From Candidatus Woesearchaeota archaeon (GTDB lineage: Archaea > Nanobdellota > Nanobdellia > Woesearchaeales > UBA11576), in NCBI GenBank assembly GCA_018675335.1, contig JABGYH010000007.1:372232-436231 (forward strand): DNA of 64,000 bases, written 5' to 3'. The notes beneath the pieces were generated by a model, which saw only the letters and a program-made list of their open reading frames with translations, was not told the origin of the DNA and ran no database searches. The first letter of the stretch is position 1, and each line of letters starts with the position of its first letter. Below are positions 6,572-63,758 of the stretch, in pieces. The position numbers and the translations under genes are program-made.

Positions 6572-8287
6572 ATGCCAAGCATAACACTTAACAAAGAAGT
6601 TTTTGAAAAACTTATTGGAAAAGAACTTAGTGAAGAAGAATTAAAAGATAGAATAAGCATGCTTGGAACGGATCTTGAAAAAATAGAAGATGGAGAAATC
6701 CATGTGGAAGTATTCCCTAACCGACCAGATATGTTATCCGAACAAGGATTTGGACGCGCATTATCTGCATTTATTGGTGTTAATGTTGGACTTAAACAAT
6801 ACCAAGTTTTAGATAGTTCAGAAAGAGTAATAGTTTCTGAATCAGTAAAAAATATTAGACCTTATACTACCTGTGCAATTGTTCGTGGACTAAACTTTGA
6901 TGATGCGAAAATTAAAGAAATTGTTCAAATACAAGAAAAACTTCACGTAACATTTTGTCGAAATAGAAAAAAAGGAGCAATAGGAATATACCCTATGGAA
7001 AAAATAAAAACTCCTATAAGATATATGGCTGCAGAACCCAATACAATTAAATTCTTACCACTAGAATCACAAAGAGAAATGACTGGTCTGCAAATATTAT
7101 CACAACACCCTGCCGGACGAGAATATGGTCATTTACTCGAAGGAAAAGAAAAGTTTCCATTCTTTATTGACGCAAATGATCAAGTATTATCAATGCCCCC
7201 AATCATAAACTCACATTTAACTGGAAAAGTAACTGAAAACACAACTGATGTTTTTATTGAATGTAGCGGATTTGACTTTAACATACTTCAAATTTGTTTA
7301 AACATAATTGTAACTGCACTCTCAGACATGGGTGGAACAATTCATAACATGAATGTAGAATATCCTGACGAAACAAAAAAAACTCCAAATCTTACTCCTC
7401 GAAAAATGAAATTTGATCTTGATTATACCAATAAATTATTAGGTCTTTCTTTAACACTCGAGGAATGCGAAAAATTACTCGCTAAAATGGGGTGTGGAAT
7501 GGAAAAATCAACTGATGGTCGTAGTTATGCTTTAATTCCAGCTTATCGTGCAGACATGTTACATCACATGGATTTAGTTGAAGATATTGCAATAGCATTT
7601 GGTTATGAAAATTTTTGTGAAGAAATACCCCAAGTTGGAACAATTGGAGAAGAAGAACCAATAGAGATATTCAAAAGAAAATTATCAATTATGCTTATCG
7701 GACAAAGATTACTTGAAACAAATACTTATCACTTATCAAATAAAGAAGAACAAAATGAAAAAATGCTAGATCAAGTTAATTTAGTAGAATTAAAAAATCC
7801 ATTAACAATAGAATATTCAGTTTTAAGAAGAAAAATGTTGCCTTCGCTCATAAGAGTATTAAGTGAAAATAAACATCATGAATACCCCCAAAATTTATTT
7901 GAGATGGGAGTTGTATTCAAACATGATGATACTCAAGAAACACTTGTTCGTGAAGATGAACATTTATCAGTTTGTTTATGTGGACAAGATAGCGATTTCA
8001 CCAAGATTAAACAAATATTGAGTAGTTTAATGGAAGGACTTAATTTAAATTATGAAACAACCACTAACGAACACAATTCACTAATTAGGGGAAGAAGCGC
8101 AAATATATCTTGCGAATTTAAAACAAATTTAACCGGAACTGATGATGATACAAAAAGCATTACTCTAGGATATATTGGAGAATTAAATCCAGAAATCCTA
8201 GAAAAATGGGGAATTGAAATGCCTGTTTCTTGCTTTGAACTAAATCTTAGTAAATTATTTGAAGAATATCACAAAATAATCCAATAA
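6572..8287 (+). CDS. pheT: Phenylalanine--tRNA ligase beta subunit
   Basis: At 571 residues this is the short archaeal/eukaryotic type of PheT. N-terminal motifs include EVFPNRPDMLSEQGF (B1-like domain), the central B3/B4 editing region with FFIDANDQVLSMPPIINS, and the C-terminal class II-like domain (SVLRRKMLPSLI, NLFEMGVVF, GYIGELNPEILEKWGIEMPV). The subunit carries the editing site that clears mischarged Tyr-tRNA-Phe and supports the alpha subunit structurally. It lies 62 bases downstream of pheS in the same direction and is presumably in the same operon. Nothing looks truncated. Confidence 0.96.
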   Translation: MPSITLNKEVFEKLIGKELSEEELKDRISMLGTDLEKIEDGEIHVEVFPNRPDMLSEQGFGRALSAFIGVNVGLKQYQVLDSSERVIVSESVKNIRPYTTCAIVRGLNFDDAKIKEIVQIQEKLHVTFCRNRKKGAIGIYPMEKIKTPIRYMAAEPNTIKFLPLESQREMTGLQILSQHPAGREYGHLLEGKEKFPFFIDANDQVLSMPPIINSHLTGKVTENTTDVFIECSGFDFNILQICLNIIVTALSDMGGTIHNMNVEYPDETKKTPNLTPRKMKFDLDYTNKLLGLSLTLEECEKLLAKMGCGMEKSTDGRSYALIPAYRADMLHHMDLVEDIAIAFGYENFCEEIPQVGTIGEEEPIEIFKRKLSIMLIGQRLLETNTYHLSNKEEQNEKMLDQVNLVELKNPLTIEYSVLRRKMLPSLIRVLSENKHHEYPQNLFEMGVVFKHDDTQETLVREDEHLSVCLCGQDSDFTKIKQILSSLMEGLNLNYETTTNEHNSLIRGRSANISCEFKTNLTGTDDDTKSITLGYIGELNPEILEKWGIEMPVSCFELNLSKLFEEYHKIIQ

Positions 8288-8338
8288 TAATATTAAGAAT
8301 TAATCCTACTAAATTTATTTAATTTAAATCAGGAGTTT

Positions 8339-9325
8339 TTACTCTGCCAAATTTATTGTTTGAACTTTTGTAGAAATAAGTTCATCATAAACATCAAAGA
8401 ATGCGATGTGTAATTTTTTGTCTTCTTCTAAATCACTAGTTGTTATTTTTGTTTCTATGTTTATAGTTTTCATAGATCCACTAGTAATTTTTATTTTCTG
8501 GTCTTCAAGATTTATTTCATCATCAAACCATTTTGGCGGAACTTCATTTGCAGCATATATTTTCATTTTTATTGTTTGAGGATATACCGTAAATGTTTCG
8601 CCATTAGTTATTATTAATTCTAAATTTTCAATTGATCCCCAGTCTTCTCCTCGAGTATTAAATGTGTGATCTTCTAAATAGGTTATGACTTTAAGATATT
8701 CCCTGATCACATATTTTGCAGACTCATCAGCATCAGTATATTCATCTGTTGAAACTCCAACAGTTGGGTTTTGGTCAGTTAAATTATCTTGATTAGTTGA
8801 GGAAATAGTTGAATTGGAATTGTTAATATTATTAGCCGCAGCAGTATCAGCTATACTAGAATTATTATCAGCACCATCATTTTCGCTAGGTTCAATAATT
8901 ATTGGCACTCCTAACTGTTCTGTTTGATTAATAATTTCAGTTGCGGTTTTATTATCAGGTATTAAATCATCTTTTGAACTTACAGTTTCAGATACACTCG
9001 CCTTATTTGTAGAATTGATTGATGAATTCAAACTTGCGTTGATAGGTTCATAATCCATTTGAGTTGTTAATTCAGTAATTTGAGTGTTGTTATCCGAACT
9101 CATTTTTTGAGCACTAATTCTACCAATAAAGAAACTTCCCACAATAATTATTACAAAAATAAGTGCATAAATGATAAATTTGAGTACTGAACGCATACTT
9201 ACAGAATAAGCTAAGATTTCATCTAATAAGAATTCATGTCGCTTCTTTCGTCTAAACGGGTTGTTTATTTCTTTTCTTTTGAAAGCGAGCTTTTTTTTGT
9301 TCTTTGTTTTATGTGATGCCATCAT
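8339..9325 (-). CDS. One-pass membrane protein with Asn/Ser-rich external region
   Basis: The 328-residue protein begins with about 45 strongly basic cytoplasmic residues, then one transmembrane helix (FIIYALIFVIIIVGSFFIG, residues about 50-70). A long low-complexity stretch rich in Asn, Ser, Thr, Asp and Glu follows (about 75-190). The last 120 residues form a compact domain (from about YVIREYLKVITYLED to the end) with alternating hydrophobic residues like a beta sandwich. The family is not recognised. The topology and N-glycosylation-type sequons suggest a surface protein whose linker is exposed. Two Met codons open the frame; the second is one codon in and equally possible. It faces pheT tail to tail. 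Confidence 0.75.
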   Translation of the reverse strand: MMASHKTKNKKKLAFKRKEINNPFRRKKRHEFLLDEILAYSVSMRSVLKFIIYALIFVIIIVGSFFIGRISAQKMSSDNNTQITELTTQMDYEPINASLNSSINSTNKASVSETVSSKDDLIPDNKTATEIINQTEQLGVPIIIEPSENDGADNNSSIADTAAANNINNSNSTISSTNQDNLTDQNPTVGVSTDEYTDADESAKYVIREYLKVITYLEDHTFNTRGEDWGSIENLELIITNGETFTVYPQTIKMKIYAANEVPPKWFDDEINLEDQKIKITSGSMKTINIETKITTSDLEEDKKLHIAFFDVYDELISTKVQTINLAE

Positions 9326-16636: not shown

Positions 16637-19600
16637 GTGGATGTATCAGAACAAGTAAGAATATTTGAAGAATTCTTTGAAAAGAATTACTTAACAGATA
16701 TACTAGAAAAAATAAGAATAGGGCAAAACTATTTAGTAGTTGATTTCTTAGAATTAACCAAATTTAATCCCGAAATTTCACAATTATTACTAGATCAACC
16801 AGAAGAAATTCTAAAAACAGCAGAAATTGCAATAAGATCATTTGACTTACCTGATAGTTTTAAAAATTTCTATGTAAGATTTTTTAATTTACCGCTATCA
16901 CAAAAAATAGCAATAAGAGCTATAAGAAGTGAACATTTAGAAAAATTTATTTTTTTAGATGGAACTGTTAGACAAAAATCAGATGTTCGTCCTCAAGTAA
17001 CTTCCGCCCGATTTGAATGTCCAAGCTGCGGAAATGTAATTACAGTTCTTCAACTAGAACAAAAATTTAAAGAACCTACCAGGTGTGGTTGTGGAAGAAA
17101 AGGAAAATTCAGACTTCTAAGCAAAGAACTTGTTGATGCACAAAAAATAGTATTAGAAGAATTAGCAGAACAACTTGATGGTGGCCAACCAAAAAGAATT
17201 GACGTATTTCTCAAAAATGATTTAGTTTGCCCATTAAGTGATAAAAAAACCAATCCCGGAACAAAAGTACAAGTTGTTGGCCAATTAAAAGAAGTTCCAA
17301 TACCTGCAAGAGATGGCGGTCAATTAATCAGGTATGATTTGATGGTTGAAGTAAATCACATATTAACTATGGATGAAGATTACGGCGAACTAAAAATAAC
17401 TGATGAAGAAAAAAAAGAAATTTTAGAATTATCACGCGATCCAAAAATATTACTTAAATTAACAAATTCAATTGCGCCTTCAATTTATGGTCATGATAAA
17501 ATAAAAGAAGCAATAGTTCTACAAATACTCGGAGGAGTACACAAAACGCGTAAAGATGGTGTTCGAACTAGAGGAGACATGCACATTTTACTAATAGGGG
17601 ATCCTGGTTCGGGAAAATGTTTGGAGGGTAATACTAAACTAGTTATGGGAACAGGAGAAATAAAAACAATCAAAGAAATAGTGGAATCAAAAATAAATGA
17701 AAATGTTTTTTCAATTAATCATACAGGAAATTGTTTTGATATTGCCCCCTCAAGATTTTGGAAAAGAAAAATTAGTGAAAAACTTTTTAAAATTAAAACA
17801 AAAACAGGCAATGAACTTTTACTTACTAAACAACATCCATTATTTACTACAAATCACGGATTGATTAATTCTAAAACTGCTGCAGAATTTAATATTGGAG
17901 AATATATAGCTCAACCATCTAATTTGAATGTTTTTGGAGAATTACAACAAGTTCCAATTGATTTTGAAAAAGTTAAATCTTTTCATAAAACAAAATATAA
18001 TTTACCAACACACATAGGTGTTAAGTTTGCAAGGTTGTTAGGCTATCTAGTTGGAGATGGATATGTTAGACAAAGAAAAACAACTGGCTTAGTAAGCATC
18101 ACAAATAATGATTTTGATTTGTTAAATCGTTTCGAACACATAATTCATGATTTATTTGGAATACAGGTTAGTAAAAGAAAAAAACAAAATTCAAATAGTT
18201 ATGAATACTATTTTTGCTCAAGAGAACTAGTTAATTGTTTAGAAAAAATTGATAAAAATATAACTAAAGGATCGGGAGATATGTTAATTAGCAAATACAT
18301 CCAAAAATCCCCTGATTTTGTTTTAAAGGAATTTATTTCTGCATTATTTGACTGTGAAGGTTATGTTAATAAAAATAAACGAGAAATAGAGTTTAGTTCG
18401 AAAAGTAAAAATTTAATTGTTGATTTAAAATTGTGTTTATTAAGATTTGGGATAACAACTCAAAGTTCTGAATGTTTAAAACATGCAACAAATACAATAA
18501 ATAAAATTAAAAGAAAATATCATAGATTAAAAATTAGTGGAGAAAATATTAAACAATTCTCTAAAACAATAGGATTTGGGTGTTCTAAAAAACAAACTGA
18601 TTTAAAAAAATCAATTGAATTAAATGGAAAATTTAACACAAATTTAAATATAGTGCCAAACATATCAGAATTATTAATAGTATTAAGACATACTTATGGT
18701 TTAACACAAAAAGATTTTGGAATTTCTCGCACAACATACCAACATTACGAAAGGGGGGATAGAAATCCAAGTTTTACCAATCTAAAAAAAATTAATTTAG
18801 TTTATCAAAATCTCAAAAATAAATTTGGACTTGTTGATGATTATTTAGCTATTTTAGATCAAATTAGCAATGCAGATATTTTTTGGGATCAAATAGAATC
18901 AATAGAAGAAGTAAAAAATGAAGAAAAATACGTTTACGATTTAGAAATTCCCAAAGTTCATAATTTCATAGCAAATGGAGTTATGGTTCATAATTCTCAG
19001 TTAATTAAAAGAGCACAACTCGTTGCTCCAAAAAGTAGATATGTTAGTGGTAAGGGAGCTAGTGGAGCAGGACTAACTGCTGCAGTAGTTAAAGATGAAT
19101 TTATGAGAGGCTGGGCTCTTGAAGCAGGAGCACTAGTTTTGGCAAACAAAGGATTTTGTATGATTGACGAGTTAGATAAAATGAGTACTGAAGACCGAAG
19201 TGCGATGCATGAAGCATTAGAGCAGCAAACAGTAACCATTGCAAAAGCAAACATTCAAGCAACTCTTCGTGCAGAAACCACCGTACTTGCAGCAGCGAAT
19301 CCTAAATGGGGGAGATTTGATCCTTATGAAATAATTGCAAAACAAATTAATTTGCCACCTGCACTTATCAGCAGATTTGACTTAATATTTCCCGTAAGGG
19401 ACCTACCTGATCGCGATCAAGATAGTAAACTTGCAGCATTCATATTAAATTTACACAAAAATAAAGATGCAGGAAAAGCAGAAATTGATACTGACCAATT
19501 AAGAAAATATTTATCTTATTCTAGACGATACTGCAAACCTGAACTAACCAAAGAAGCACTCGAAGAAATACAAAAATATTATGTTGAAATAAGAAATAAA

Positions 19601-20029
19601 GGTGGAGAGGACGGAGGAGTAAAATCAATTCCTATTACTGCGCGTCAATTAGAAGCACTTGTAAGGCTTGCTGAAGCTAGTGCTAGAAGTAGACTTGCAG
19701 AAAAAGTTACTCGTAAAGATGCAAAAAAAGCAATTGAATTACTACATTATTGTATGGTTCAAGTAGGGGTTGATCCGGAAACTGGAAAAATTGATATTGA
19801 TGTTTTAACAACAGGCGTTTCAAGTAGTGCTCGAAATAATATTGCAATAGTAAAAGAATCAATTAATGAACTTGAAAATAAAATTGGAAAAACAATACCT
19901 ATAGAAGAATTAGTAAAAGAAGTACAAGAAAAAGGCATTGATGTTGATAAGGTTGACGAAGTTATTGAAAAATTAAAAAGATCCGGAGATATTTTTGAAC
20001 CTAGAAGAGGATTTATTCAAAAAATTTAA
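16637..20029 (+). CDS. mcm: MCM replicative helicase precursor containing an intein
   Basis: The frame encodes 1130 residues. Excising the intein (328-786) leaves a normal-sized MCM of 671 residues. The N-terminal domain carries zinc-binding cysteines (CPSCG, then CGC, about 125-155) and a VGQLKEVPIP loop. The AAA+ core follows, with the Walker A GDPGSGK/SQ split by the intein, Walker B MIDELDKM, sensor 1 AANPKWGRF, and the arginine finger SRFDL. A C-terminal winged helix ends the protein. MCM unwinds DNA at the replication fork. The start is GTG at 16637, behind GGTGTGA. The promoter is probably GTTTAAAAATA near 16585. Confidence 0.97.
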   Translation: MDVSEQVRIFEEFFEKNYLTDILEKIRIGQNYLVVDFLELTKFNPEISQLLLDQPEEILKTAEIAIRSFDLPDSFKNFYVRFFNLPLSQKIAIRAIRSEHLEKFIFLDGTVRQKSDVRPQVTSARFECPSCGNVITVLQLEQKFKEPTRCGCGRKGKFRLLSKELVDAQKIVLEELAEQLDGGQPKRIDVFLKNDLVCPLSDKKTNPGTKVQVVGQLKEVPIPARDGGQLIRYDLMVEVNHILTMDEDYGELKITDEEKKEILELSRDPKILLKLTNSIAPSIYGHDKIKEAIVLQILGGVHKTRKDGVRTRGDMHILLIGDPGSGKCLEGNTKLVMGTGEIKTIKEIVESKINENVFSINHTGNCFDIAPSRFWKRKISEKLFKIKTKTGNELLLTKQHPLFTTNHGLINSKTAAEFNIGEYIAQPSNLNVFGELQQVPIDFEKVKSFHKTKYNLPTHIGVKFARLLGYLVGDGYVRQRKTTGLVSITNNDFDLLNRFEHIIHDLFGIQVSKRKKQNSNSYEYYFCSRELVNCLEKIDKNITKGSGDMLISKYIQKSPDFVLKEFISALFDCEGYVNKNKREIEFSSKSKNLIVDLKLCLLRFGITTQSSECLKHATNTINKIKRKYHRLKISGENIKQFSKTIGFGCSKKQTDLKKSIELNGKFNTNLNIVPNISELLIVLRHTYGLTQKDFGISRTTYQHYERGDRNPSFTNLKKINLVYQNLKNKFGLVDDYLAILDQISNADIFWDQIESIEEVKNEEKYVYDLEIPKVHNFIANGVMVHNSQLIKRAQLVAPKSRYVSGKGASGAGLTAAVVKDEFMRGWALEAGALVLANKGFCMIDELDKMSTEDRSAMHEALEQQTVTIAKANIQATLRAETTVLAAANPKWGRFDPYEIIAKQINLPPALISRFDLIFPVRDLPDRDQDSKLAAFILNLHKNKDAGKAEIDTDQLRKYLSYSRRYCKPELTKEALEEIQKYYVEIRNKGGEDGGVKSIPITARQLEALVRLAEASARSRLAEKVTRKDAKKAIELLHYCMVQVGVDPETGKIDIDVLTTGVSSSARNNIAIVKESINELENKIGKTIPIEELVKEVQEKGIDVDKVDEVIEKLKRSGDIFEPRRGFIQKI
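17618..18994 (+). mobile_element. LAGLIDADG homing-endonuclease intein with an internal HTH domain
   Basis: The 459-residue intein begins with Cys (CLEGNTKLV, block A), directly after the Walker A lysine, and ends in VMVHN before the extein Ser. TKQHPLF is the block B His motif, and YVYDLEIPKVHNFIANG is blocks F and G. Two LAGLIDADG motifs, LLGYLVGDGYV and FISALFDCEGYV, have intact acidic residues, so the endonuclease may be active. Between the second motif and the C-terminal splicing blocks lies a Cro/C1-type HTH (LRHTYGLTQKDFGISRTTYQ, then GDRNPSF). All splice-junction residues look intact. Confidence 0.92.
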
Positions 20030-52912: not shown

Positions 52913-54178
52913 ATGGCACAACATAAAACACTAATAGCTTACATTAAAAAACATCTTGAGAAAGGAGTGGATATTACTAAGATTAAAAAAGCACTTTCTA
53001 GAGCAGGACACCCCATAAACAGAATAGAGCTTGCAGTCGAGGGCGTTTTCGAGTCCAATCCCCATCTAAGAAAAAAGAAAAAATTTGATGCGAATAAATA
53101 CTTTAAAAAATTTCAATCAAGACAAGTGATAGGCATAGGAATTGGTGTTTTAGCCGTTGTATTAATTCTATTTTTAGTAATGTTTGGACTAAAACAGTTT
53201 GGAGAGTATTCTGAGTATAGAGAAGATGTAGTTGAGTTTAACGAAAATCAAACATTTGAACTTATGAGTGACCTTGATTTACTTAATTTCGCACAACAAG
53301 AAGGAGACATGAAAGCTTGTTCTTTTATTGAGAGTCATAATTATTACTATGCCTGCGTTGAGAAATGGTGGGAGAAGGATGATTGTAAATTTTTATTGTT
53401 GACGGATCAACCAACTGATGAGTGTAGATATAATTATGCAATAAAAGAAAAAAATATTTTATTATGTGTTTATATTCAGGATTTGGATTTAAGAACTAAA
53501 TGTTATTCATTTGAAACTGATTTTTTACGAGATAAATTAGACTTAGCGTTAGCAGTTAATAATATTAGTTTATGTAATCAAGATAAAATTTGTGAATATG
53601 AATATTATTTAACAAAAGAGCGATGCGATTTAATGTTAGATTCTGGCGATTCTAACAATTGTTTTATTGAATTAGCTAAAATTAAAGGAGATCAATCTTT
53701 TTGTGATAAATTAAATAATTCAAATAATTTAGATATTGATTTGAGTTGTGATTTTCTATTTTATTCTGAAGAACAAATCATTAATTCATGTCAATATTTA
53801 GCAGATAGAGGGAGAGGTTTAGAAGGAACTGAAGAAGAATTTGTTGAAAATATTGCTTTTTCAGAATGTTTAATGAATTCAGCAATATCTCGAAATATGC
53901 CTAACCTTTGTTTTAAAACTTCTTTTAATGAAGCATGTTTAACTGCAGTAACCAAATTTGCTGAGCATGGCGATAGTTGTGGTTTAATTCAAGATACTGC
54001 GTGGAATTCAGTTTGTACTGCAATTAAAACTCAAAATTCTGAACTTTGTAATATTGCAACCGAAACAAATTTAAATACACTTTGTAATATTCATACTGAC
54101 ATGACTAAGAATGATTGTGAGGCTCTTCCAATAGGGGCACTAAAACAATTTTGTGAACGATTATTAAAATTAAGGTGA
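52913..54178 (+). CDS. Membrane protein with external cysteine repeats, related in plan to 27633-29030
   Basis: The 421-residue protein has an N-terminal cytoplasmic helical unit (LIAYIKKHLEKGVDITKIKK) similar to the units in the protein at 27633-29030. One membrane helix follows (about 70-95). The exterior from about 120 on is built of short helical repeats, each with two cysteines, such as MKACSFIESHNYYYACV and NNCFIELAKIKGDQSFC. GAGGG lies upstream of the ATG. The product is probably a disulfide-rich surface protein. Four bases separate its stop from the start of the His-Xaa-Ser precursor, so the two genes are likely co-transcribed. Confidence 0.75.
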   Translation: MAQHKTLIAYIKKHLEKGVDITKIKKALSRAGHPINRIELAVEGVFESNPHLRKKKKFDANKYFKKFQSRQVIGIGIGVLAVVLILFLVMFGLKQFGEYSEYREDVVEFNENQTFELMSDLDLLNFAQQEGDMKACSFIESHNYYYACVEKWWEKDDCKFLLLTDQPTDECRYNYAIKEKNILLCVYIQDLDLRTKCYSFETDFLRDKLDLALAVNNISLCNQDKICEYEYYLTKERCDLMLDSGDSNNCFIELAKIKGDQSFCDKLNNSNNLDIDLSCDFLFYSEEQIINSCQYLADRGRGLEGTEEEFVENIAFSECLMNSAISRNMPNLCFKTSFNEACLTAVTKFAEHGDSCGLIQDTAWNSVCTAIKTQNSELCNIATETNLNTLCNIHTDMTKNDCEALPIGALKQFCERLLKLR

Positions 54179-54182
54179 TTAT

Positions 54183-54761
54183 TTGAAAATACCCAAAATT
54201 AAAAAAGAAGTGAAAGCATTTTTGTTATCGGATTCGGGAAATGTAACTAAAAATAAAGTGTTAAAAATAGGGTTATTTTCTTCGTTATTAGGTATTGGGG
54301 GCATGAGTAAAGATGCATTTGCTTGTCATTGTAGTATAAATGCTGAATCTTTAACGGATGCGCCTAAAGATGATGATTGGTCTTTGATAAAACCTTATGC
54401 TGAACAAAGTTGTGGGACAAATCCTCCGTCTGCAGATCATAGGCCGTTATTCGAATCCCCATTTACTGATCATGGGAGTGATGGTCATTCTAGTGCTGAT
54501 GATGATAATTGGACTTGTCACGCGAGTACTCATGCAAGCCATCAAGATGGGTGGGAAGGAAATGATGAAGGCCAATTTGATCCCGCTATGGCTGATGCAG
54601 CATATCATAAAAATCATCTGCTAGTTGGTGAAGATTCGGATATAGGTGAATTGCAAATTACTCATCAACATGAAATAACTGACTGTGTTCAAGAATTACA
54701 TGCTAGTTATGATGAACATTGTAGTGATGGCGATTGTAATGATAATCATTGTAATGGTTAA
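54183..54761 (+). CDS. hxsA: HxsA-like His-Xaa-Ser precursor peptide (RiPP-type)
   Basis: The start is TTG behind GGTGAT, giving 192 residues. Residues 1-47 form a leader: a basic helix with VKAFLLSDSGNVTKNK, then the hydrophobic KIGLFSSLLGIGG and a signal-peptidase-like AFA before Cys48. The rest is Asp/His/Cys/Ser-rich and holds seven His-Xaa-Ser motifs, at residues 49, 97, 102, 113, 117, 173 and 179. Nine cysteines are also present. His-Xaa-Ser repeats define the HxsA substrates of the Hxs radical SAM system, and HxsB-, HxsC- and HxsD-like genes lie within 6 kb. The product is probably a modified secreted peptide; no chemistry is proven. Confidence 0.75.
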   Translation: MKIPKIKKEVKAFLLSDSGNVTKNKVLKIGLFSSLLGIGGMSKDAFACHCSINAESLTDAPKDDDWSLIKPYAEQSCGTNPPSADHRPLFESPFTDHGSDGHSSADDDNWTCHASTHASHQDGWEGNDEGQFDPAMADAAYHKNHLLVGEDSDIGELQITHQHEITDCVQELHASYDEHCSDGDCNDNHCNG

Positions 54762-54812
54762 TAAGTAGATTAAACAAAGTTTTTTTAATTAGTTATTTTA
54801 TTAATTTATTTA

Positions 54813-55885
54813 ATGGGTAATTTAATGAATTTGGAAACTATTAAAAAAATTTGGAAATATAAATTAACTAAAAATTTTATTAATGGTGATGAAAATTTTA
54901 ATTTATATATAGATAGTCCTTTTTGTATTGCACCTATTTGCAAATATTGCATATATAAACCAACAATTATTTCTGATAAATCAATTTTAAAATTAAAAAA
55001 TAAATATTATTCGGAAATATTGTTAAATAATATTAAAAGTTTTTCTGATATTATTTCTATAAGATTGCCCGATGCAATATATTTTGGAGGGGAACCAGTT
55101 CTTTGATGACTGTTAAACAAATGCAAACAATTTTTGATGAGTTAAATAAATATTTTAATTTTAAGTTAGTTAAACACAAACATTTTGAATTTAATCCGTT
55201 AAGTGCAACAGATGAAAAAATAGATTTTTTGTTAAAAAATAATTTTACTCATTTTACTTTTGGTGTTCAATCTTTAAATTCTGATGTTTTGAATTATAAT
55301 GATCGCATTAATATTAATTTAAAACAATTAAAAAATATTTGTATTAAATTAGAAAAACACTGAGTTAAATATAATTTAGATTTACTTGCATTTATTTTTA
55401 AGGATAATTTTAAACAAGATTTAAATATTTTAAAAGCGGATTTGGCTCTTCTTAAACAAGAAATAAATCCTATGCGAATTACTATTTTTCCTAATTATAA
55501 TAAGTTCAGAAATAATTATGCTATAACTTCAGAGTATGTTAAAATAATTAAACAGTTTCGAAAATTTATTTTAGCGTTTGCAGATCAAAATAGTTATGTT
55601 AATATCCATCAATGTACAACTATGCTGGAAAATAAAGAAATTGCTAAAAGTTTACTTAAAAATCCTATATTGGTTAGATCGGATCTGGCTAATGAACCTT
55701 GGGAGCAATATACTAGTACTTCCCCCTCTAATTCAAAATCCGAAAATAAAAGTGTTTTAGCATTTGGAGGTTGGAATAATAGGAAACCGTATTCTTATAT
55801 AACTGATAAATTCGAATACCGTACTATTAATTCAATTAAGGGTACTGAGTATGAATTAATTTGTGCAGATATAAACTATTATTAA
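54813..55885 (+). pseudogene. Broken HemN/HemW-like radical SAM gene
   Basis: The first piece (54813-55106) carries a radical SAM cysteine motif, PFCIAPICKYC, with four rather than three residues between the first two cysteines. Its reading frame runs out in GGEPVL. One extra G in the G-run near 55088-55091 would restore the expected FGGGTSSL and continue into 55103-55363, whose HFTFGVQSLN is a HemN-type motif. An in-frame TGA at 55361-55363 interrupts that piece, and the same frame then runs on to 55885. So one frameshift and one stop inactivate the gene. The intact homologue would be a HemW-like radical SAM protein. Confidence 0.75.
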
Positions 55886-56793
55886 TCGGTTATTGGTTTA
55901 AATTCAGAATTTCCGAATTTTTCAGGATATTCTTTCCACACACCTTCGCAAATATTATTATGTTTACATAAATTACATTGTTTAAATTTGGCTTTAATTT
56001 TTTTTCTAACTATTTCCCAATTTTTGGTATTTCCATCTAATTGTTTTAATTCTGAATTTTTTTTATTAACAAATCTTAATTCCGAAATGAGTTCTTCAAA
56101 TCCTTTCATAAAACAAAAGGGAAATGTTTCAAAATTAACTTTAATATTATTATCTTTGCAAAATTGCGCAGTTTCATGAACATATAATTCTATTTCAGAA
56201 TATTTTGGTACTACAAGATCAAAATTTTTTCTTGCATTACCTTCTGCGTGAGGAAATGCGAAATTAATATTATTAACATTTAAATTTTTAAATAATTGTG
56301 CAATATTTTTTAAATCTTTAAAATTTATTTTAGAAATTACAACTTTTCCTGTAATAGTTTTATCAATTTTTTTTAAATTTTTTATTCCTTCAATTGTTTG
56401 TTTAAATGAATTATTAACTCTGACAATTTTATCATGAATTTGCGCAGTTGATCCATGAATTGCAATTACAAAATGAATATTATATTTTTTAAAATTTTGA
56501 CAAAAATCTTGATAAAAGAACATTCTGCCATTTGTTTGAATTCCAATGCGAAAACCCATATTTGTTGCAGCAGTTAATAAATCAAATAAATCTTTTCTTA
56601 AAGTTGGCTCCCCCCCTGTAAAAACAACTTGATCACACCCATTTTTTTTAGATTCAATGAGTTCATTAATATATTCTTGAGTGCTTCTATCTTGATTTCC
56701 TCTGAAGATTAATGCTTTTTGTCTTTGATCTGCAATAACGCAATGGATGCAATTATTATTGCACGTATATCCTAATTTAATATCTGTTTTCAT
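55882..56793 (-). CDS. hxsC: HxsC-like radical SAM maturase
   Basis: The 303-residue protein has the radical SAM cluster motif CNNNCIHC (Cys 11, 15 and 18), a TGGEPTLRKDL motif, an IAIHGSTAQIHD strand, and a C-terminal auxiliary cysteine set (CNLCKHNNIC) near 280. HxsC enzymes are the shorter radical SAM partner in Hxs systems, about this length. The gene is three bases downstream of the HxsB-like gene and ends the operon, and it overlaps the 3' end of the broken radical SAM gene by a few bases. The HxsC assignment rests on context as well as sequence; another short radical SAM enzyme is possible. Confidence 0.65.
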   Translation of the reverse strand: MKTDIKLGYTCNNNCIHCVIADQRQKALIFRGNQDRSTQEYINELIESKKNGCDQVVFTGGEPTLRKDLFDLLTAATNMGFRIGIQTNGRMFFYQDFCQNFKKYNIHFVIAIHGSTAQIHDKIVRVNNSFKQTIEGIKNLKKIDKTITGKVVISKINFKDLKNIAQLFKNLNVNNINFAFPHAEGNARKNFDLVVPKYSEIELYVHETAQFCKDNNIKVNFETFPFCFMKGFEELISELRFVNKKNSELKQLDGNTKNWEIVRKKIKAKFKQCNLCKHNNICEGVWKEYPEKFGNSEFKPITD

Positions 56794-56796
56794 TTT

Positions 56797-58203
56797 TTAT
56801 TTATATTTAAGCCAGTTTAATAAAATTTTTCTAGATTCGGGTTCGAATAATAATTTATTAAAAACATAATCGAACTGAAACATAAATAATTTACATTTTG
56901 AATTTGATGAGAGTTTCGGAATCATATTTCCTTCTTCTGCATAGTTCATAACTGGACAAAGCCCGCAATATGGTTTGTAAACACAATTATCGCATAAAAA
57001 TGAACTGTTAATGGATAATGAGATTAGTTGTTGAGTTTTTTTTTGATTTATTATCTCTTTATAATTATTATCAAAAACATTTCCTAGTTTAAATAAATCA
57101 AAATTTCTTCCTTCATCACAGGAAAAAATGTTTCCTTTGTGATCATAAGCAATTTGACCGATAGCTAAACCGCAAGGGCTTCTAAAATCTAAAAAAGAAG
57201 GATCTGTTTTTGTAAGAATTTTTTTTAAAATTAAAACAACATATCTTTCTCTGACAAAAATTCCTCTTTTGTTGAGGGATATTATGTATTCTACACTTTT
57301 TTCCCAAAAATCAATAAATTCCTCAATTGAATATCCGTCATTATTCCATTTTTCTTGTGCGAATCCTAGTTTATTCAGATATTTTATTTGAATATCTTTA
57401 AACCCTTTGTCAACGTATTCATCGATGATTTCTTTATGTTTTGATAGGCTGTTTCTTGTTGTAACCATTAAAGCTGCAATGCGTTTGCCTTTAGATCTTA
57501 CATCTTTAATTTTGTTTGTTACTGCAGTATAAGTTCCACTTTTGTCCTCATATATTCTGTTGTGATCGTGGATTTCTTGAGGGCCATCAAGACTAGTACA
57601 CATATCTATATTTTGTTCTTGAATCCAGTCTAATTGGTCCTCGGTTAAACAAGTTAAATTTGTTACTAATGCAAATCTTATTTTTTTATTGAATTTTAGG
57701 TTCATTTTTTTTGCTTCAGTAACAATAAATTGAAATGTCCCCCAATTAAGTAATGGTTCACCGCCTTGAAACTCAATAGTTATTGTATTTGAAGGAGTTT
57801 GAAAAATGAATTCAAGAGTTTTTTTGGCAGTTTTTAAATCCATATCAAATTCTTTTTTGTCGCAATCTTTTGCAGCAGAGTGACAATAAATACATTTATG
57901 GTTGCATCTTAGTGTCGTAACTATAATATGCAGTGAAGCACCCTTAAATAAAAATTCAAATCGTTTTGCATAATCAATTAAAATTTGATTAATATTATTT
58001 TTAGTAATTATTATTCCCTTTTTAGTTAAATCTTCGAATAGTTTTGGATCTAATTCTTTACGCATTAATTTATCAAATTTTTTTTTACCTAAAACTATCC
58101 AAGATCCCGATTCATTAACTATTAAAAATCTATCTTTAATTTTTTTGTACCTGAAGGGATTATATTCAAAATCGGTTATTATTTCTTTTTTTTTATTTTC
58201 CAT
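56797..58203 (-). CDS. hxsB: HxsB-like radical SAM/SPASM maturase
   Basis: The 468-residue protein fits the HxsB family closely: an N-terminal peptide-binding-like region with YNPFRYKKIKDRFLIVNESG, then LRCNHKCIYC (Cys 100, 104, 107), EFQGGEPLLNW, TSLDGPQEIHDHN, and a C-terminal SPASM set (CDNCVYKPYCGLCPV, about 412-426). SPASM enzymes carry extra iron-sulfur clusters and usually cross-link or oxidise ribosomal peptides. The length matches HxsB. It lies within a minus-strand operon between two other radical SAM genes. Confidence 0.82.
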   Translation of the reverse strand: MENKKKEIITDFEYNPFRYKKIKDRFLIVNESGSWIVLGKKKFDKLMRKELDPKLFEDLTKKGIIITKNNINQILIDYAKRFEFLFKGASLHIIVTTLRCNHKCIYCHSAAKDCDKKEFDMDLKTAKKTLEFIFQTPSNTITIEFQGGEPLLNWGTFQFIVTEAKKMNLKFNKKIRFALVTNLTCLTEDQLDWIQEQNIDMCTSLDGPQEIHDHNRIYEDKSGTYTAVTNKIKDVRSKGKRIAALMVTTRNSLSKHKEIIDEYVDKGFKDIQIKYLNKLGFAQEKWNNDGYSIEEFIDFWEKSVEYIISLNKRGIFVRERYVVLILKKILTKTDPSFLDFRSPCGLAIGQIAYDHKGNIFSCDEGRNFDLFKLGNVFDNNYKEIINQKKTQQLISLSINSSFLCDNCVYKPYCGLCPVMNYAEEGNMIPKLSSNSKCKLFMFQFDYVFNKLLFEPESRKILLNWLKYK

Positions 58204-58224
58204 TTTGTTGTTATGTTTATAGTA

Positions 58225-59142
58225 TTAACTGGGTAATTGGTTATGAATATGTGCTGCACAAGGTTTACATGATCCTCTTTTCTTCAAAGTACATGATGTG
58301 CATTTTTTCATCATTATATGATCTAATTTTTTAATTATGTTATTTCTTATTTCTTGAATGTCATTTAAACTATTTTTTTTTAAATTGCCAATTTTTTGAT
58401 CTAAAAAAGGACATATGTGTACATCTAAATTTGGGAATACAAACAATCCATTATTGCATTTTTCAAAAATAAAATTATTTTTTAGTAATTTATTTTTTTG
58501 TGCGATTGTAAACATGCAAATTGGCGAAAAACAATGTTGTTTTATTTGAATTTGTTGTTTTATACATTCTTCAATTATGACTTTAATTTTGTATTTGTTT
58601 TTATCATTTATTTCTGATATGTATTCATTATTTTTTTTTTGTGTTGGAAGTGAAATGACTGGCATGACTATGTTTGGTTTGATATTTTGAATATGTTTAA
58701 TTATTTCTTGTTCATCTGTTTGATCGTGAATGACTGCAGTAAGTGCAATTTCTGCATTTTTTTCTTTTAATAATTTAATATTGTTAAATATTATATTAAA
58801 TTCTTTTTCGTTATGAGCACAATGGAAATTGAATTTAAAATTTTTCATGTTTGAGTATTTTTCAAAAAGCCTTTGATGAAATAAACCGTTAGTTGTAATT
58901 AGTATTTCAAAATCTTCTTTAAAATTGAGTATGTAATCAATAATTTGTTTTAATTCAGGATGGTTTGTGGGTTCACCCCCCAGAAGATTAATTCTATTAA
59001 ATTTATTTGCAATAAAGTTATCAAAATAAAATTTAAACTCATTGAAATTTATGTGCTGATTGTTTTTAAGAACATGTTTTGCTAAACAATAATTGCAGCC
59101 TCTATTGCATTCTTTGCTGATAAATATTTGATTTAAAGACAT
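58225..59142 (-). CDS. Third radical SAM enzyme of the Hxs cluster
   Basis: The 305-residue protein has the cluster motif ECNRGCNYC (Cys 12, 16 and 19), LLGGEPTNHPELKQI and ITTNG, plus a C-terminal cysteine set (CTSCTLKKRGSCKPC) that could hold an auxiliary cluster. It is shorter than HxsB and not closely like it or HxsC. Its start shares one base with the stop of the small gene before it (TAATG). It may carry out a second modification or be an alternative HxsC. I cannot assign a subfamily. Confidence 0.8.
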   Translation of the reverse strand: MSLNQIFISKECNRGCNYCLAKHVLKNNQHINFNEFKFYFDNFIANKFNRINLLGGEPTNHPELKQIIDYILNFKEDFEILITTNGLFHQRLFEKYSNMKNFKFNFHCAHNEKEFNIIFNNIKLLKEKNAEIALTAVIHDQTDEQEIIKHIQNIKPNIVMPVISLPTQKKNNEYISEINDKNKYKIKVIIEECIKQQIQIKQHCFSPICMFTIAQKNKLLKNNFIFEKCNNGLFVFPNLDVHICPFLDQKIGNLKKNSLNDIQEIRNNIIKKLDHIMMKKCTSCTLKKRGSCKPCAAHIHNQLPS

Positions 59143-59336
59143 TATTTCATCAAACCTAGTGCGTAATTTGAAAATTCTAATTCTAGATTTGAAATCGGTT
59201 CGTGAGATTTAAGATTAAGCTTAAAATAGTTATTATTTTCTGTAAATTTCACTTCGCAGATTTTTTCAAATGCTATAATTGTAGAGTTAATTGCAGTTTT
59301 TGAATAAAATTTTTTGTTTAATTTCAGTTGAATCAT
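59142..59336 (-). CDS. Small HxsD-like companion protein
   Basis: The 64-residue product (from ATG at 59336; an alternative ATG at 59369 overlaps the previous gene) reads IQLKLNKKFYSKTAINSTII, then ends in LELEFSNYALGLMK. It shares with HxsD-type proteins the KKFYSK...AI start and the short final helix with an F/E-x-x-NYAL motif. Such small proteins accompany peptide-modifying radical SAM enzymes and may bind the precursor, like PqqD-type recognition elements. The homology is suggestive, not firm. Confidence 0.5.
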   Translation of the reverse strand: MIQLKLNKKFYSKTAINSTIIAFEKICEVKFTENNNYFKLNLKSHEPISNLELEFSNYALGLMK

Positions 59337-59346
59337 TTTAGTTTGT

Positions 59347-59760
59347 TTATTCTTTGTAATCTTCTGCATCCCAAGGCTTCATAATTTTTTCAGTATCGCT
59401 AACAGTATTTTTTGGCTGTTTGATGGTGGTTTGGGGTTCTGCATTATTTGTGAGTAAAACTCTTTGCAAGATTGTTTCTCTAATTTGTTTGTTTCTTTCA
59501 TTTTGAATTTTATAAACTGAATAATTAAGCAGCTCTTCATTAAAATCTTGAACTAATAAATTTAAATCTTGATTGGGTTTTTTTTTTCGAATTTCAATCA
59601 AGATTTCTTGAGTTGGATCTCCATCTAAAATAATGAAAGCCTTATCAATCATAATATATGCTGCGCTATATACTATATCTATGGGATAAATTTTTGGATT
59701 CAAAGAAAATGTTGCATTATCTGATTCTATAGTTATATTTCCTAATTTGTTAGATATCAT
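59347..59760 (-). CDS. hxsD: HxsD-like protein
   Basis: The 137-residue protein matches the HxsD layout: LNPKIYPIDIVYSAAYIMID in the first third, and the ELLNYSVYKI segment (about 76-85) that corresponds to the 'LLNDYxLRE' signature that I recall for this family. The last 30 residues form a Pro/Thr/Asp tail. HxsD co-occurs with HxsB and HxsC; its role is not established, and a precursor-binding or chaperone role is likely. It lies 54 bases after the prepilin peptidase gene. Confidence 0.7.
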   Translation of the reverse strand: MISNKLGNITIESDNATFSLNPKIYPIDIVYSAAYIMIDKAFIILDGDPTQEILIEIRKKKPNQDLNLLVQDFNEELLNYSVYKIQNERNKQIRETILQRVLLTNNAEPQTTIKQPKNTVSDTEKIMKPWDAEDYKE

Positions 59761-59814
59761 TATAATTCTCCTTTTTATTTAGTTTATATTATTATTCTTA
59801 TTATTTATGTATTT

Positions 59815-60879
59815 TTATGCGAATATTTGAATTAATGCAGTAATTATGTTACCTTTAAAAATAATTGTTAATAAACAACCTGCGAATATGAATGGTGCGA
59901 AAGGTATTGTTTCTTGTATATTTAAATGACTGAAATGTAATTTTCTAGAATTGTGTGCTGTTTGAATAAATTTTATGTCTTTTTTTGTTAAGCCAGTTGT
60001 TCGTCTTTCTATTGCAATAGTATCCTTGTTTAATTCTAAAAATTTTTGGTTTTTTTCAAAAATGGCAAAACCCTTTTTTGTTATGAGTTCTAAGGGGATC
60101 ATTCCTTCTTTAAGATTTGATATTTTAATTTTATATGAATAAAAATCAGTCGAATTAATAATTAACACTTTAATAAGTAAAAAACCCGTTAAAAAACTTA
60201 AGAAATTAAACCAAAATTCAAATCTGGTAAAATGTTCTGGACTAATAAATAATCTGATGATTGCAATGAAAATTAATACATAAATTGTTTGCTCTTCAAA
60301 TATTTTATTGAATAAATATGAAATTAAAAAAAGACCCATCATTATATATAAATAATTTGAATTTATTCCTACATAATTGAGGATTGATTTGGAAATCCAA
60401 GTTAGGCTGAATACCGTTAAAATTATTCTGAGAACATATCTATGATTAGTAAATCGTTTTAAAATTTTTCGTTTATGAGCAAAATTGGTTTTTAAGATTA
60501 GTTTAACAGTTAAATAAATAAATAATGGGATGAATGCGTTTATGATTAATTCTAAAATTGGCAAATCTATGCTGATAAATTTGTAATGTGTTAAAGGGAT
60601 TAGTGAAAAAAATGCAAGATATAATTTGGCATCTCCTGCACCCCAAAAAGAAAAATGCCAGCCTATGAACCCTAATAGTGTGGCACCCACAATATTAATT
60701 AGAAAAAAAATTATATAATCTAATTGAATTAGGTTTAGAATAAATAATGTTGAATTAATTAAAATGCTACAAATTAATGCAATTATGACATATTTATTTT
60801 TAATTTTTCTTTTAGTTATATCTTGATAACTAGTAACAAGTCCTAAAATTATTATTATAGGTAAAAAATAAATAATCAT
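59815..60879 (-). CDS. Type IV prepilin peptidase (A24 family) with C-terminal extension
   Basis: The 354-residue protein is mostly membrane helices. Two catalytic Asp motifs of A24 peptidases are present: SYQDITKRKIKN (Asp near residue 21) and FWGAGDAKLY (Asp near residue 82). The core is about 200 residues; the rest adds another cluster of helices and a soluble segment not typical of short archaeal FlaK or PibD. The enzyme cuts short basic leaders from pilin-like proteins at the membrane. It starts nine bases after the fused radical SAM gene and so lies inside the Hxs operon, which is unusual. Confidence 0.85.
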   Translation of the reverse strand: MIIYFLPIIIILGLVTSYQDITKRKIKNKYVIIALICSILINSTLFILNLIQLDYIIFFLINIVGATLLGFIGWHFSFWGAGDAKLYLAFFSLIPLTHYKFISIDLPILELIINAFIPLFIYLTVKLILKTNFAHKRKILKRFTNHRYVLRIILTVFSLTWISKSILNYVGINSNYLYIMMGLFLISYLFNKIFEEQTIYVLIFIAIIRLFISPEHFTRFEFWFNFLSFLTGFLLIKVLIINSTDFYSYKIKISNLKEGMIPLELITKKGFAIFEKNQKFLELNKDTIAIERRTTGLTKKDIKFIQTAHNSRKLHFSHLNIQETIPFAPFIFAGCLLTIIFKGNIITALIQIFA

Positions 60880-60888
60880 GTGAATCTC

Positions 60889-62874
60889 CTAACTGTGCTC
60901 TTTTATTTCTGAAATTATATTTTGTAGTTTATTTTGGATTTCATTTATTTGATTTGAATTGGGTTGATTTGTAAGATTTTCTATAATTAAAAACTTTGGA
61001 GTTCCAACACCCATAAATTCAAATATTTTTTGTAAATAATTTTTTTGTAAATCAAATTCATTAAATGGGGGTTTAGAATAAATTCCCCCTCTTGTTAAAA
61101 TACATATTATTGTTTTATTTTCTAATAATCCTTTTATTGTGGGTTTTAATTGAAATGTTTTATTTTCAATTAAGATTAAATCAAAAAATGCTTTGAGAAT
61201 TGAAGGTATTGAAAAAGACCACATTGGGGTGGATAATATTAACATATCGCAGTTAACTAGCTCTTTAATGTAATAATCTGATAAATAGTTTAAATTTGTT
61301 TTTTTATTATTTGAATTTGTTAAATGTTTTATGTAGTCTTCATTTATGAACTCTATTTTTTCAGAACATAAATTAATTATTTTTGTGTTAGATTTTTTTT
61401 TACACGAAATTTGATTTATTAATTCTTTTGCTATATTTTTTGAGTTTGAATTTTTTTTCGGACTAGTATTAATCCATAATATGTTATTAGCGATATTATT
61501 TTGGTTTTTTGTTAATAATTTAGTTTCAATTTTAATTAATGAATTAATTGAATCTTCTGGGCAATCTAAACATAGTTTAATGAATTTAGAACTTTTTTTG
61601 ATTTCTTCTAAAAAAAGTTGTTTGTTGTGGTCAGTTAATAATGATAAATTATTTTTTGCTTGATCTAAATTTTTGGATGATAAAAATTTAAAAAGATTTT
61701 GGTATTCTTGCACGTTTTCATCAGATATTAATGGCCATAGTTGTCCTTGTAGTTCAGAATAACTTTTGTGTTTGATTAAACTATTATAATTAAAATAGTC
61801 CTGAGTTCCTGGAAATAAAAAAACAGGAAATGGGCAGGGAATTCCTCCAAAATAAATTATGCTCAGGAATGTCCTAAATATTGATTTAATTTCATCATCT
61901 GGGTGGCCAATAATGAATGTGCATTCACAGTCTTTGATGTGAAATCCTTCTTGTTTAAGAAGATGTGTCATTTTTATTGATGATATGATTGTATACGGTT
62001 TGTTATATTTAGTGATTGTTTTAGAACTTGCGGTTTCAAAAGGTAAACTGGCAGTTGTAACTCCTGCAGTTATCATTTTTTTAACAAGTGACTCATGAAT
62101 AAGATTTGGTTGAAAACCCATTTCAAATTTAAGTTGAGATGTCATTCCTGATTTAATATACATATCAAGAAATTTTTCTAAATGATCTGGAAATAAAAGT
62201 ACGTTTGAATCCCAATTCCAAAAAGCTTTGGGGTTATATTTGACATAAAATTCTTTCATATAATTAATTACAAATTCAATTGGGATTTTTTTTAGTTTAT
62301 CCATTGCAGAGATGCAAAATGAACATTTATTTGGGCAACCAACTTCAAGTTGAAATAATCCATAACTCCATTTGTTTTGGATTTGAAAATCTGGTTTGAA
62401 AAGTTCGACTCCCTTTATTCTTTTTTTAAAACAAATAACTCCTAACTTAGATTCTAGGTTGGGAGTAACTCTTGCCATGGTTCCGCCCAATTTTATTATA
62501 GATCTAGGAAAAATGAATTTGCAGGTTTGAATCATGGAGTTAACAACGTCAAAATCACAAGAAAATGAACAACTAATCCAAATTTCATCAGGTATTTTTT
62601 TAATATTTTTTAGTTCATATTCTAGAAATTTTTTATTTTTTCCTAAAATGTGTGTTTGTATTTTTTGTTTTCCATTTAACCCTAGGGGCTTAATTTTCCA
62701 TAAGTGTTTATCATTTGATCGCATATTAATAAAAAAAACGTTATTTTGTTTATTTTTTAAAAATGATATTAACTGTAAAATGCCTATTGCTATTTGGTTT
62801 GGGCAAAGATAGTTTTCAATACAAGTATAAGGCGTATTCAAAATAACAATATTTTTATTTGAAGGAATAATCAT
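60889..62874 (-). CDS. Radical SAM protein (B12-binding-like N terminus) fused to a flavodoxin-like reductase
   Basis: The 661-residue protein has an N-terminal Rossmann-like region (about 1-165), as in B12-dependent radical SAM enzymes but without a visible DxHxxG motif. The radical SAM domain follows, with CPNKCSFC (Cys 180, 184 and 187) and FIIGHPDDEI. The last 190 residues (about 468-655) look like an NADPH-quinone-reductase/flavodoxin fold: LWINTSPKKNSNSKNIAKEL, LSTPMWSFSIPSILKAFFDL and LTRGGIY. Flavodoxins supply electrons to radical SAM clusters, so the fusion may carry its own donor. It heads the operon. Confidence 0.75.
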   Translation of the reverse strand: MIIPSNKNIVILNTPYTCIENYLCPNQIAIGILQLISFLKNKQNNVFFINMRSNDKHLWKIKPLGLNGKQKIQTHILGKNKKFLEYELKNIKKIPDEIWISCSFSCDFDVVNSMIQTCKFIFPRSIIKLGGTMARVTPNLESKLGVICFKKRIKGVELFKPDFQIQNKWSYGLFQLEVGCPNKCSFCISAMDKLKKIPIEFVINYMKEFYVKYNPKAFWNWDSNVLLFPDHLEKFLDMYIKSGMTSQLKFEMGFQPNLIHESLVKKMITAGVTTASLPFETASSKTITKYNKPYTIISSIKMTHLLKQEGFHIKDCECTFIIGHPDDEIKSIFRTFLSIIYFGGIPCPFPVFLFPGTQDYFNYNSLIKHKSYSELQGQLWPLISDENVQEYQNLFKFLSSKNLDQAKNNLSLLTDHNKQLFLEEIKKSSKFIKLCLDCPEDSINSLIKIETKLLTKNQNNIANNILWINTSPKKNSNSKNIAKELINQISCKKKSNTKIINLCSEKIEFINEDYIKHLTNSNNKKTNLNYLSDYYIKELVNCDMLILSTPMWSFSIPSILKAFFDLILIENKTFQLKPTIKGLLENKTIICILTRGGIYSKPPFNEFDLQKNYLQKIFEFMGVGTPKFLIIENLTNQPNSNQINEIQNKLQNIISEIKEHS

Positions 62875-62933
62875 CTGTTTTGTAGGAATGTTGGAATTTA
62901 TAAAACTTTCATTTGTATTTAATAAGGTTTATT
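62875..62933. promoter_or_regulatory. 59-bp divergent promoter between the operon and the prenyltransferase
   Basis: One short region must start the minus-strand radical SAM operon and the plus-strand prenyltransferase. A TATA-like TTTATAAAAC lies at 62897-62906 and may serve the prenyltransferase; AAGG lies just before its ATG. The compact divergence suggests shared control. Confidence 0.55.
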
Positions 62934-63758
62934 ATGGCTGAAGAAATAAAATTTAAAAATGTACTCGAAAAGTTTAATTTTCATTTGGATATGAATTCAA
63001 TTAAAAAAGATGATTTGTTAAATTTATTTGAAGATTTTTTAGTTCAAAATAAATTAAATAGTTTAGAATGTTCTATAAAATATGCTCATGATAATGTATT
63101 TTCAAAAAGATTTAATATTTGGTTTAAAGGAAAAAATCATTTTCAATCTATTTCTAATACTATAAAATTTTTTAACCAAGTTGAAAATAAATTTAATTTA
63201 AAATTAAATTATGACCTGCTTAAAAATTTTTTTGGAAAAGAATTCGATCTTGATTTGTTTGATCAGGTGATTATGGGAGTTGATTTTAGAGAAGACTTGA
63301 GTAAATCTCGTCTTAAATTATGGGTTTTGACTTTAAATTATGGTGTGATGAAAAAATTAATTCAGTTTTATGGGATAAATTATAATCTTGCGTCTTTACC
63401 TATATCCAATCAAGTATTATTGGGATTTGATTTTGGATTTGACGGATCATTAAATAATAAAATTTATTTTACCTATTTTCAAGAATTATTAAATCAAGAT
63501 CATACTAAACAAGTTTTTAAAAATTTATTTTCTAAAGAATTTATTGAGGTGGTTAATTATTGTGATCTAATTCACATTTCTTTGAGTGGGGGAAATGGTA
63601 AATATATTTTTCATTTTGCACCTTGCCAAATTAATTTTTTTAAAGAAAAATTTAGTTCTAGTGTCGGTTATGATTGGAATTTTCCATTAAAAGTTTTTTC
63701 TACTTCCTCGACTGAATTTAATTCAATGCAAATTAGAAATTATAATATTTATTATTAA
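62934..63758 (+). CDS. LynF/TruF/PatF-like peptide prenyltransferase
   Basis: The ATG at 62934 (after AAGG) gives 274 residues; a TTG earlier is unlikely. The protein follows the pattern of the cyanobactin prenyltransferase family: NTIKFFNQVENKFNLKLNYD, then FGKEFDLDLFDQVIMGVDFR, the LGFDFGFDGSLNNKIYF segment, and a C-terminal end of IRNYNIYY. Family members have an ABBA-type fold and transfer dimethylallyl groups to Ser, Thr or Tyr of peptides, though some, such as PatF, are inactive. Finding it divergent from an Hxs operon suggests the modified peptide is also prenylated. Confidence 0.75.
   Translation: MAEEIKFKNVLEKFNFHLDMNSIKKDDLLNLFEDFLVQNKLNSLECSIKYAHDNVFSKRFNIWFKGKNHFQSISNTIKFFNQVENKFNLKLNYDLLKNFFGKEFDLDLFDQVIMGVDFREDLSKSRLKLWVLTLNYGVMKKLIQFYGINYNLASLPISNQVLLGFDFGFDGSLNNKIYFTYFQELLNQDHTKQVFKNLFSKEFIEVVNYCDLIHISLSGGNGKYIFHFAPCQINFFKEKFSSSVGYDWNFPLKVFSTSSTEFNSMQIRNYNIYY

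Follow-up and report, generated by a model that had tools for sequence, protein, structure and literature searches.

F-type peptide prenyltransferases have been described in cyanobactin pathways, whose gene clusters are marked by PatA/PatG-type subtilisin proteases, a PatE-type precursor and often a YcaO protein. His-Xaa-Ser (Hxs) systems are organized around radical SAM maturases, and we know of no described product of any of them. In the literature available under open licence, preprints excluded, no report joining archaeal or Hxs clusters with prenyltransferases was found. Individual prenyltransferases differ in what they do. LimF acts on His/Tyr (PMC11002830), and NctPC is an ABBA peptide prenyltransferase fused to a terpene cyclase and placed outside the main F-type group (PMC13290415). 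PatF is reported to be without prenyltransferase activity, which was ascribed to His125 and Met136, near Arg66, where other members carry Asp and Lys/Arg, respectively; its Gly127 is Arg in other family members (PMC3668578).

The locus described here holds a member of this known enzyme class in an archaeon and in a new pathway context, and in one relative the enzyme is fused to radical SAM domains. The whole stretch of DNA analysed, 64,000 nucleotides long, is referred to as the window. The prenyltransferase gene and its neighbours are as follows.

54183..54761, plus strand: candidate His-Xaa-Ser precursor, 192 aa (NF038309 (HxsA3), E 2.5e-7, below cut-off)
55882..56793, minus strand: HxsC4-like radical SAM enzyme, 303 aa (NF038332, E 7e-43; TIGR03977, E 4e-30; both below cut-off)
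56797..58203, minus strand: HxsB, His-Xaa-Ser system radical SAM/SPASM maturase, 468 aa (TIGR03978, 462 bits, above the cut-off of 370)
58225..59142, minus strand: radical SAM enzyme, 305 aa (PF04055, E 2.7e-12), with a weak SPASM match below cut-off
59142..59369, minus strand: HxsD-like protein (NF038315, 64.5 bits, above the cut-off of 41)
59347..59760, minus strand: HxsD (TIGR03976, 50.2 bits, just above the cut-off of 50)
59815..60879, minus strand: A24 prepilin-type peptidase homologue, 354 aa (PF01478, above cut-off)
60889..62874, minus strand: radical SAM and flavodoxin/FMN-reductase fusion, 661 aa (PF04055, E 1e-8, residues 179-333; PF02525, E 1e-32, residues 464-651)
62875..62933, no strand: divergent intergenic region, 59 bp, a putative promoter region as read from the letters
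62934..63758, plus strand: F-type (ABBA-type) peptide prenyltransferase, 274 aa, an almost certain assignment (TIGR04445, PF19156, AlphaFold model)

The prenyltransferase reading frame is intact, from the ATG at 62934 to the TAA at 63756-63758. A sequence-only reading of this DNA had assigned the product to the LynF/TruF/PatF family, by a pattern running from a VEN motif to a C-terminal YNIYY, and had expected an ABBA barrel. Both motifs are present, as QVENKF and NYNIYY, and profile searches bear the assignment out. TIGR04445 (LynF/TruF/PatF family peptide O-prenyltransferase) matches with E 2e-31 and 109.5 bits, which does not reach its own curated cut-off of 140, and PF19156 matches residues 15-231 with 95.6 bits and E 4.5e-27, exceeding its gathering cut-off of 28.8 bits. 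PF19156 is DUF5838, the Pfam family covering F-type prenyltransferases. The TIGR04445 cut-off is neared or passed only by the protein of one relative, G146 (146.8), and by the fused domain of the genus-mate G001 described below (134.4-140.6), and the profile matches in none of 14 control genomes. All 14 phmmer matches in the PDB are F-type enzymes, KgpF being the best (E 1.2e-26). No relative of the prenyltransferase was found in the viral contigs searched, nor any match in the plasmids searched, and an Rfam scan of the window gave no match.

The expected fold was recovered as well. An AlphaFold model built with nine related sequences (pLDDT 88.5, pTM 0.86) has the helix and strand order of an ABBA barrel and matches solved F-type prenyltransferases along the whole chain, the best Foldseek and VIA-align matches all being ABBA enzymes and spanning residues 6-274. 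KgpF is matched with E 1e-23 and TM 0.87 in Foldseek and is the best match in VIA-align (PDB 8ye0; Z 31.2, 267 residues, rmsd 2.3, 26% identity). It is followed by LimF (Z 28.6-29.1), PagF (28.4), DciF (27.4), PirF (27.3) and PatF (26.0), whereas enzymes of the DMATS/indole type begin at Z 16.4, far below the F-type range of 26.0-31.2. It is thus almost certain that 62934-63758 encodes a divergent cyanobactin-type (F-type) peptide prenyltransferase.

Next, we examined the residues that are altered in PatF. Motif spacing and alignment make R59, D117, R119 and K128 of the window protein correspond to the PatF-numbered positions Arg66, Asp125, Arg127 and Lys/Arg136, and all four residues are identical in 11 of 11 archaeal sequences compared. 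Since they are intact, the enzyme is predicted to be catalytically active. Origin of the prenyl donor is less straightforward. Two family searches, PF00348 (polyprenyl synthase) and type-2 IPP isomerase (IDI-2), define what is meant here by absence of isoprenoid genes: in the host (G000), G001 and G058, PF00348 gave no match of note and IDI-2 none except a short, marginal one in G001 (E 6e-4, 19 bits), while every one of the 14 controls, and likewise G013, G146 and G353, has a PF00348 match. As neither enzyme is detectable in the host, the donor is maybe scavenged; it may come either from other enzymes or by uptake, perhaps from partner cells. A survey of DPANN archaea found that, in several other phyla of this group, only some members have the mevalonate pathway (PMC8407392).

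These results bear on the idea that the protein is an inactive, PatF-like relative retained for another role, e.g. peptide binding. PatF is a precedent for loss of activity within the family (PMC3668578), and both the host's lack of detectable PF00348 and IDI-2 and the score under the TIGR04445 cut-off would fit such a loss. The donor-binding residues altered in PatF are, however, intact here and invariant across the archaeal members, the reading frame is undamaged, and the gene has been retained in distant archaeal lineages. We consider inactivity quite unlikely, and an active enzyme is the preferred reading.

The genes on the other side of the divergent gap form an Hxs-type cluster. HxsB, HxsD and the HxsD-like protein score above their cut-offs. 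The HxsC4-like protein reaches 104.6 with TIGR03977 (cut-off 267.9) and 147.1 with NF038332 (HxsC4; cut-off 500) and is accordingly called HxsC-like only; its identity with homologues in other Hxs loci is up to 55%. The radical SAM enzyme at 58225..59142 shares 36% identity with a homologue in the G058 Hxs cluster, and homologues of the A24 peptidase adjoin HxsB at many other Woesearchaeota loci. The candidate precursor is atypical, with 192 aa and few HxS motifs (seven), and scores 30.4 bits with NF038309 against a cut-off of 65. Its leader, of the form K-I-P-K-I-K-K...FL...G...K, is homologous to ORFs adjoining HxsB in other genomes. Among the genes tested, within 52913-62874, there was no match to YcaO, a PatA/PatG-type subtilisin or a PatE-type precursor. 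At 54813-55885 (plus strand), a radical SAM gene resembling coproporphyrinogen oxidase (HemZ/HemN type) is broken: the frame changes near 55100 and an in-frame stop codon follows at 55361-55363, as a result of either real decay or sequencing error.

The radical SAM-flavodoxin gene (60889..62874) is transcribed divergently from the prenyltransferase gene. The 59-bp gap between them contains one palindromic TATA-like TTTATAAA at 62897-62904, whose centre is some 27 nt away from the ATG on the minus strand and 34 nt from that on the plus strand, and a Shine-Dalgarno-like AAGG at 62924-62927, ahead of the prenyltransferase. TTTATAAA occurs 11 times in the 64 kb, against 16.5 expected. The single copy in the gap could serve as a promoter element for both directions. 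Shared regulation had been thought likely on account of the divergent position; the arrangement of the gap makes this idea plausible, the promoter itself being a putative one.

To place the locus among its relatives, we turned to 352 genomes of the window's order. A credible prenyltransferase is present in five, and HxsB above cut-off in 49, among them all five prenyltransferase-bearing genomes (chance P 4.4e-5). In four of the five, both genes lie on the same contig, 2-26 kb apart; the distance is 26 kb in G013 and 12 kb in G058, and in both of these genomes the prenyltransferase adjoins other genes. Only five of the 49 HxsB-bearing genomes carry the prenyltransferase, so the enzyme is optional. 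A further match, in G311, covers 51 positions with E 1e-3 and was treated as noise.

The physical connection is closest in the genus-mate G001. There, one ORF of 1005 aa combines a MiaB/RimO-like domain (18-391), an HxsC-like domain (414-678) and the prenyltransferase (731-1005), and is followed by an A24 peptidase, HxsD and HxsB up to the contig end. The middle domain of this fusion has an unfused relative in the window's HxsC4-like protein, and the surface-protein genes beside the prenyltransferase in G001 and in the window are homologous (37% identity). In G146, the contig starts inside an open prenyltransferase frame whose first residues are the KPLK stretch also seen in the G001 linker, a hint that a second fusion may exist. 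The link to radical SAM RiPP genes that the sequence-only reading had drawn is thereby strengthened, by the HxsC-like fusion, by the co-occurrence with HxsB and by a separate operon in Methanosarcinia (see below).

Several further features of these loci were recorded. Directly upstream of the G001 fusion gene lies a 308-aa orphan (L010:10809-11735) with no family and no convincing PDB relative. As a candidate second barrel it was rejected: its single-sequence model has pLDDT 37 and is meaningless, though the succession of helices and strands bears a loose likeness to a barrel. Adjoining the G001 Hxs cluster is a DUF483 protein (L010:9859-10755), to which a protein of the G146 cluster is weakly homologous (26% identity, E 9e-7). 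Near the Hxs cluster of G146, a 974-aa protein (L083:298-3222) carries two radical SAM domains around a DUF362/ferredoxin-like middle. G013 has two prenyltransferase copies (L011:9144-12941), the second broken. Between them, on the opposite strand, lies an FAD oxidase with a fused squalene-hopene-cyclase-like domain, an arrangement that invites comparison with NctPC.

Outside the window's order, the prenyltransferase was found in seven of 237 Methanosarcinia genomes (L030:8181-12027, L032 and L044-L048), in an operon of a short precursor ending in CxxCANGWHW, a radical SAM/SPASM enzyme (477 aa), the prenyltransferase (272-278 aa) and an FAD amine-oxidase-like protein. All four genes are seen in six of the seven genomes, the seventh locus ending at a contig edge. 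The FAD protein shares 36% identity with the one flanked by the two G013 prenyltransferases. The precursor gene of L030 occupies 8181-8375; at L047, two precursors stand in tandem. One Coleofasciculus and one Acidobacteriaceae genome have the prenyltransferase gene near a Nif11-type precursor; bacterial relatives at L028:365-3502 and L031:9791-13031 have genes for Nif11-type precursors and for FAD-binding oxidases nearby. Samples of 279 genomes from the window's phylum and 246 from the phylum of Methanosarcinia yielded no further credible case, and distribution of the enzyme is therefore rare and patchy.

In a tree of these proteins, cyanobacterial sequences are separate, with moderate support, from the Woesearchaeota group (84/83) and the Methanosarcinia group (100/100), in a comparison that includes five usable cyanobacterial rows and several long branches and is partly open. 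The host is an archaeon (Woesearchaeota): the window belongs to a genome of 1.7 Mb (97% complete) and lies on a contig of 564 kb, which carries an MCM with archaeal winged helix, together with PolD subunits and Orc1/Cdc6 as read from the ORF list. An intein, carrying a LAGLIDADG domain along with an HTH match, splits the MCM helicase gene (16637-20029, plus strand). It is extremely improbable that the gene is a stretch of bacterial DNA, cyanobacterial or otherwise, wrongly placed in an archaeal genome, or that it was transferred very recently. The family is, admittedly, best known from cyanobacteria, but the contig bears archaeal replication genes, the genus-mate presents the same setting and the adjacent surface-protein homologue in a separate assembly, GC content of the gene is 22% against 28% for the window, and the archaeal sequences form their own branches.

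What the enzyme acts upon can be approached from its gene context. It might be an active ABBA prenyltransferase of a small molecule (an amino acid, an indole, a lipid or cofactor precursor) for which the Hxs cluster is a mere neighbour. Many ABBA relatives are indeed small-molecule enzymes, F-type enzymes take amino acid derivatives too (PMC7253389), and the gene is not directly beside HxsB in G058 and G013. Sequence and fold nevertheless group it with the peptide-specific F-type and not with DMATS, and the HxsC-like fusion, the presence of HxsB in five of five genomes and the Methanosarcinia operon of precursor, radical SAM enzyme and prenyltransferase indicate a peptide. A small-molecule substrate thus appears unlikely, and we think it probable that the prenyltransferase is a RiPP tailoring enzyme working on an Hxs peptide together with the neighbouring Hxs radical SAM cluster.

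In such a pathway, the Hxs machinery would bind the HxS precursor (54183-54761) through its leader, and HxsB and the HxsC-type radical SAM enzymes would modify the His/Ser-rich core. A short allylic diphosphate would be bound in the beta-barrel, R59 and K128 contacting the diphosphate and D117 orienting R59, and an SN1-like transfer would place the prenyl group on a nucleophilic side chain of the core, for which Trp, His or Tyr are the best guesses. The sequence-only reading had put forward Tyr and Ser as candidate acceptors and dimethylallyl diphosphate (DMAPP) as a candidate donor. The A24 peptidase and export would then complete a lipidated surface or secreted peptide. HxS precursors adjoining HxsB in the order have a common leader, such as LPKLKKKISSFLTxEEGKISKE (Hxs loci L049-L078), and most of them carry Trp or Tyr at the C-terminus or within the last few residues. 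The same ends occur in genomes devoid of the prenyltransferase and do not, by themselves, show which residue is the acceptor.

Taken jointly, the data incline us slightly toward the view that there are archaeal prenylated RiPPs which combine radical SAM chemistry with ABBA prenylation, as an optional branch of Hxs systems in Woesearchaeota and as a separate CANGWHW system in Methanosarcinia. In one case the two chemistries would be united in one MiaB-like/HxsC-like/prenyltransferase polypeptide, and at least three of the Woesearchaeota involved have no detectable polyprenyl synthase or type-2 IPP isomerase; their donor would perhaps come from a partner cell. This view would extend F-type peptide prenylation to archaea, and the fusion of a prenyltransferase with an Hxs-type radical SAM enzyme would bring two kinds of modification together on one peptide. 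The precursor sequences and the small operons offer handles toward a first Hxs product. The Methanosarcinia operon in particular is compact (four genes, a short precursor, an invariant CANGWHW end), making prenylation testable in E. coli. If the host cannot make prenyl donors, the question arises of metabolite uptake by a presumed episymbiont.

Among described enzymes, KgpF, the Trp C-prenyltransferase of kawaguchipeptin, has the same barrel and is the best structural and phmmer match to the window protein. KgpF is cyanobacterial and belongs to a cyanobactin pathway, whereas the window enzyme sits in an archaeal Hxs radical SAM cluster with no cyanobactin genes detected. LimF, a His C2-geranyltransferase (PDB 7vmy, 7vmw), has a similar fold and is likewise a cyanobactin enzyme; its acceptor, His, is an abundant residue of HxS precursors. 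PagF, PirF, PatF and DciF have the fold and conserved motifs in common with the window enzyme (Z 26.0-28.4), but share only about 18-24% identity with it in structural alignments and act in other pathways. Fusions also differ in their partners: in NctPC the partner is a terpene cyclase, in G001 it consists of MiaB-like and HxsC-like radical SAM domains. Like Hxs systems, the window has HxsB and HxsD above cut-offs, an HxsC-type enzyme and a candidate HxS precursor; unlike the known ones, its cluster adds an A24 peptidase, extra radical SAM enzymes and the prenyltransferase.
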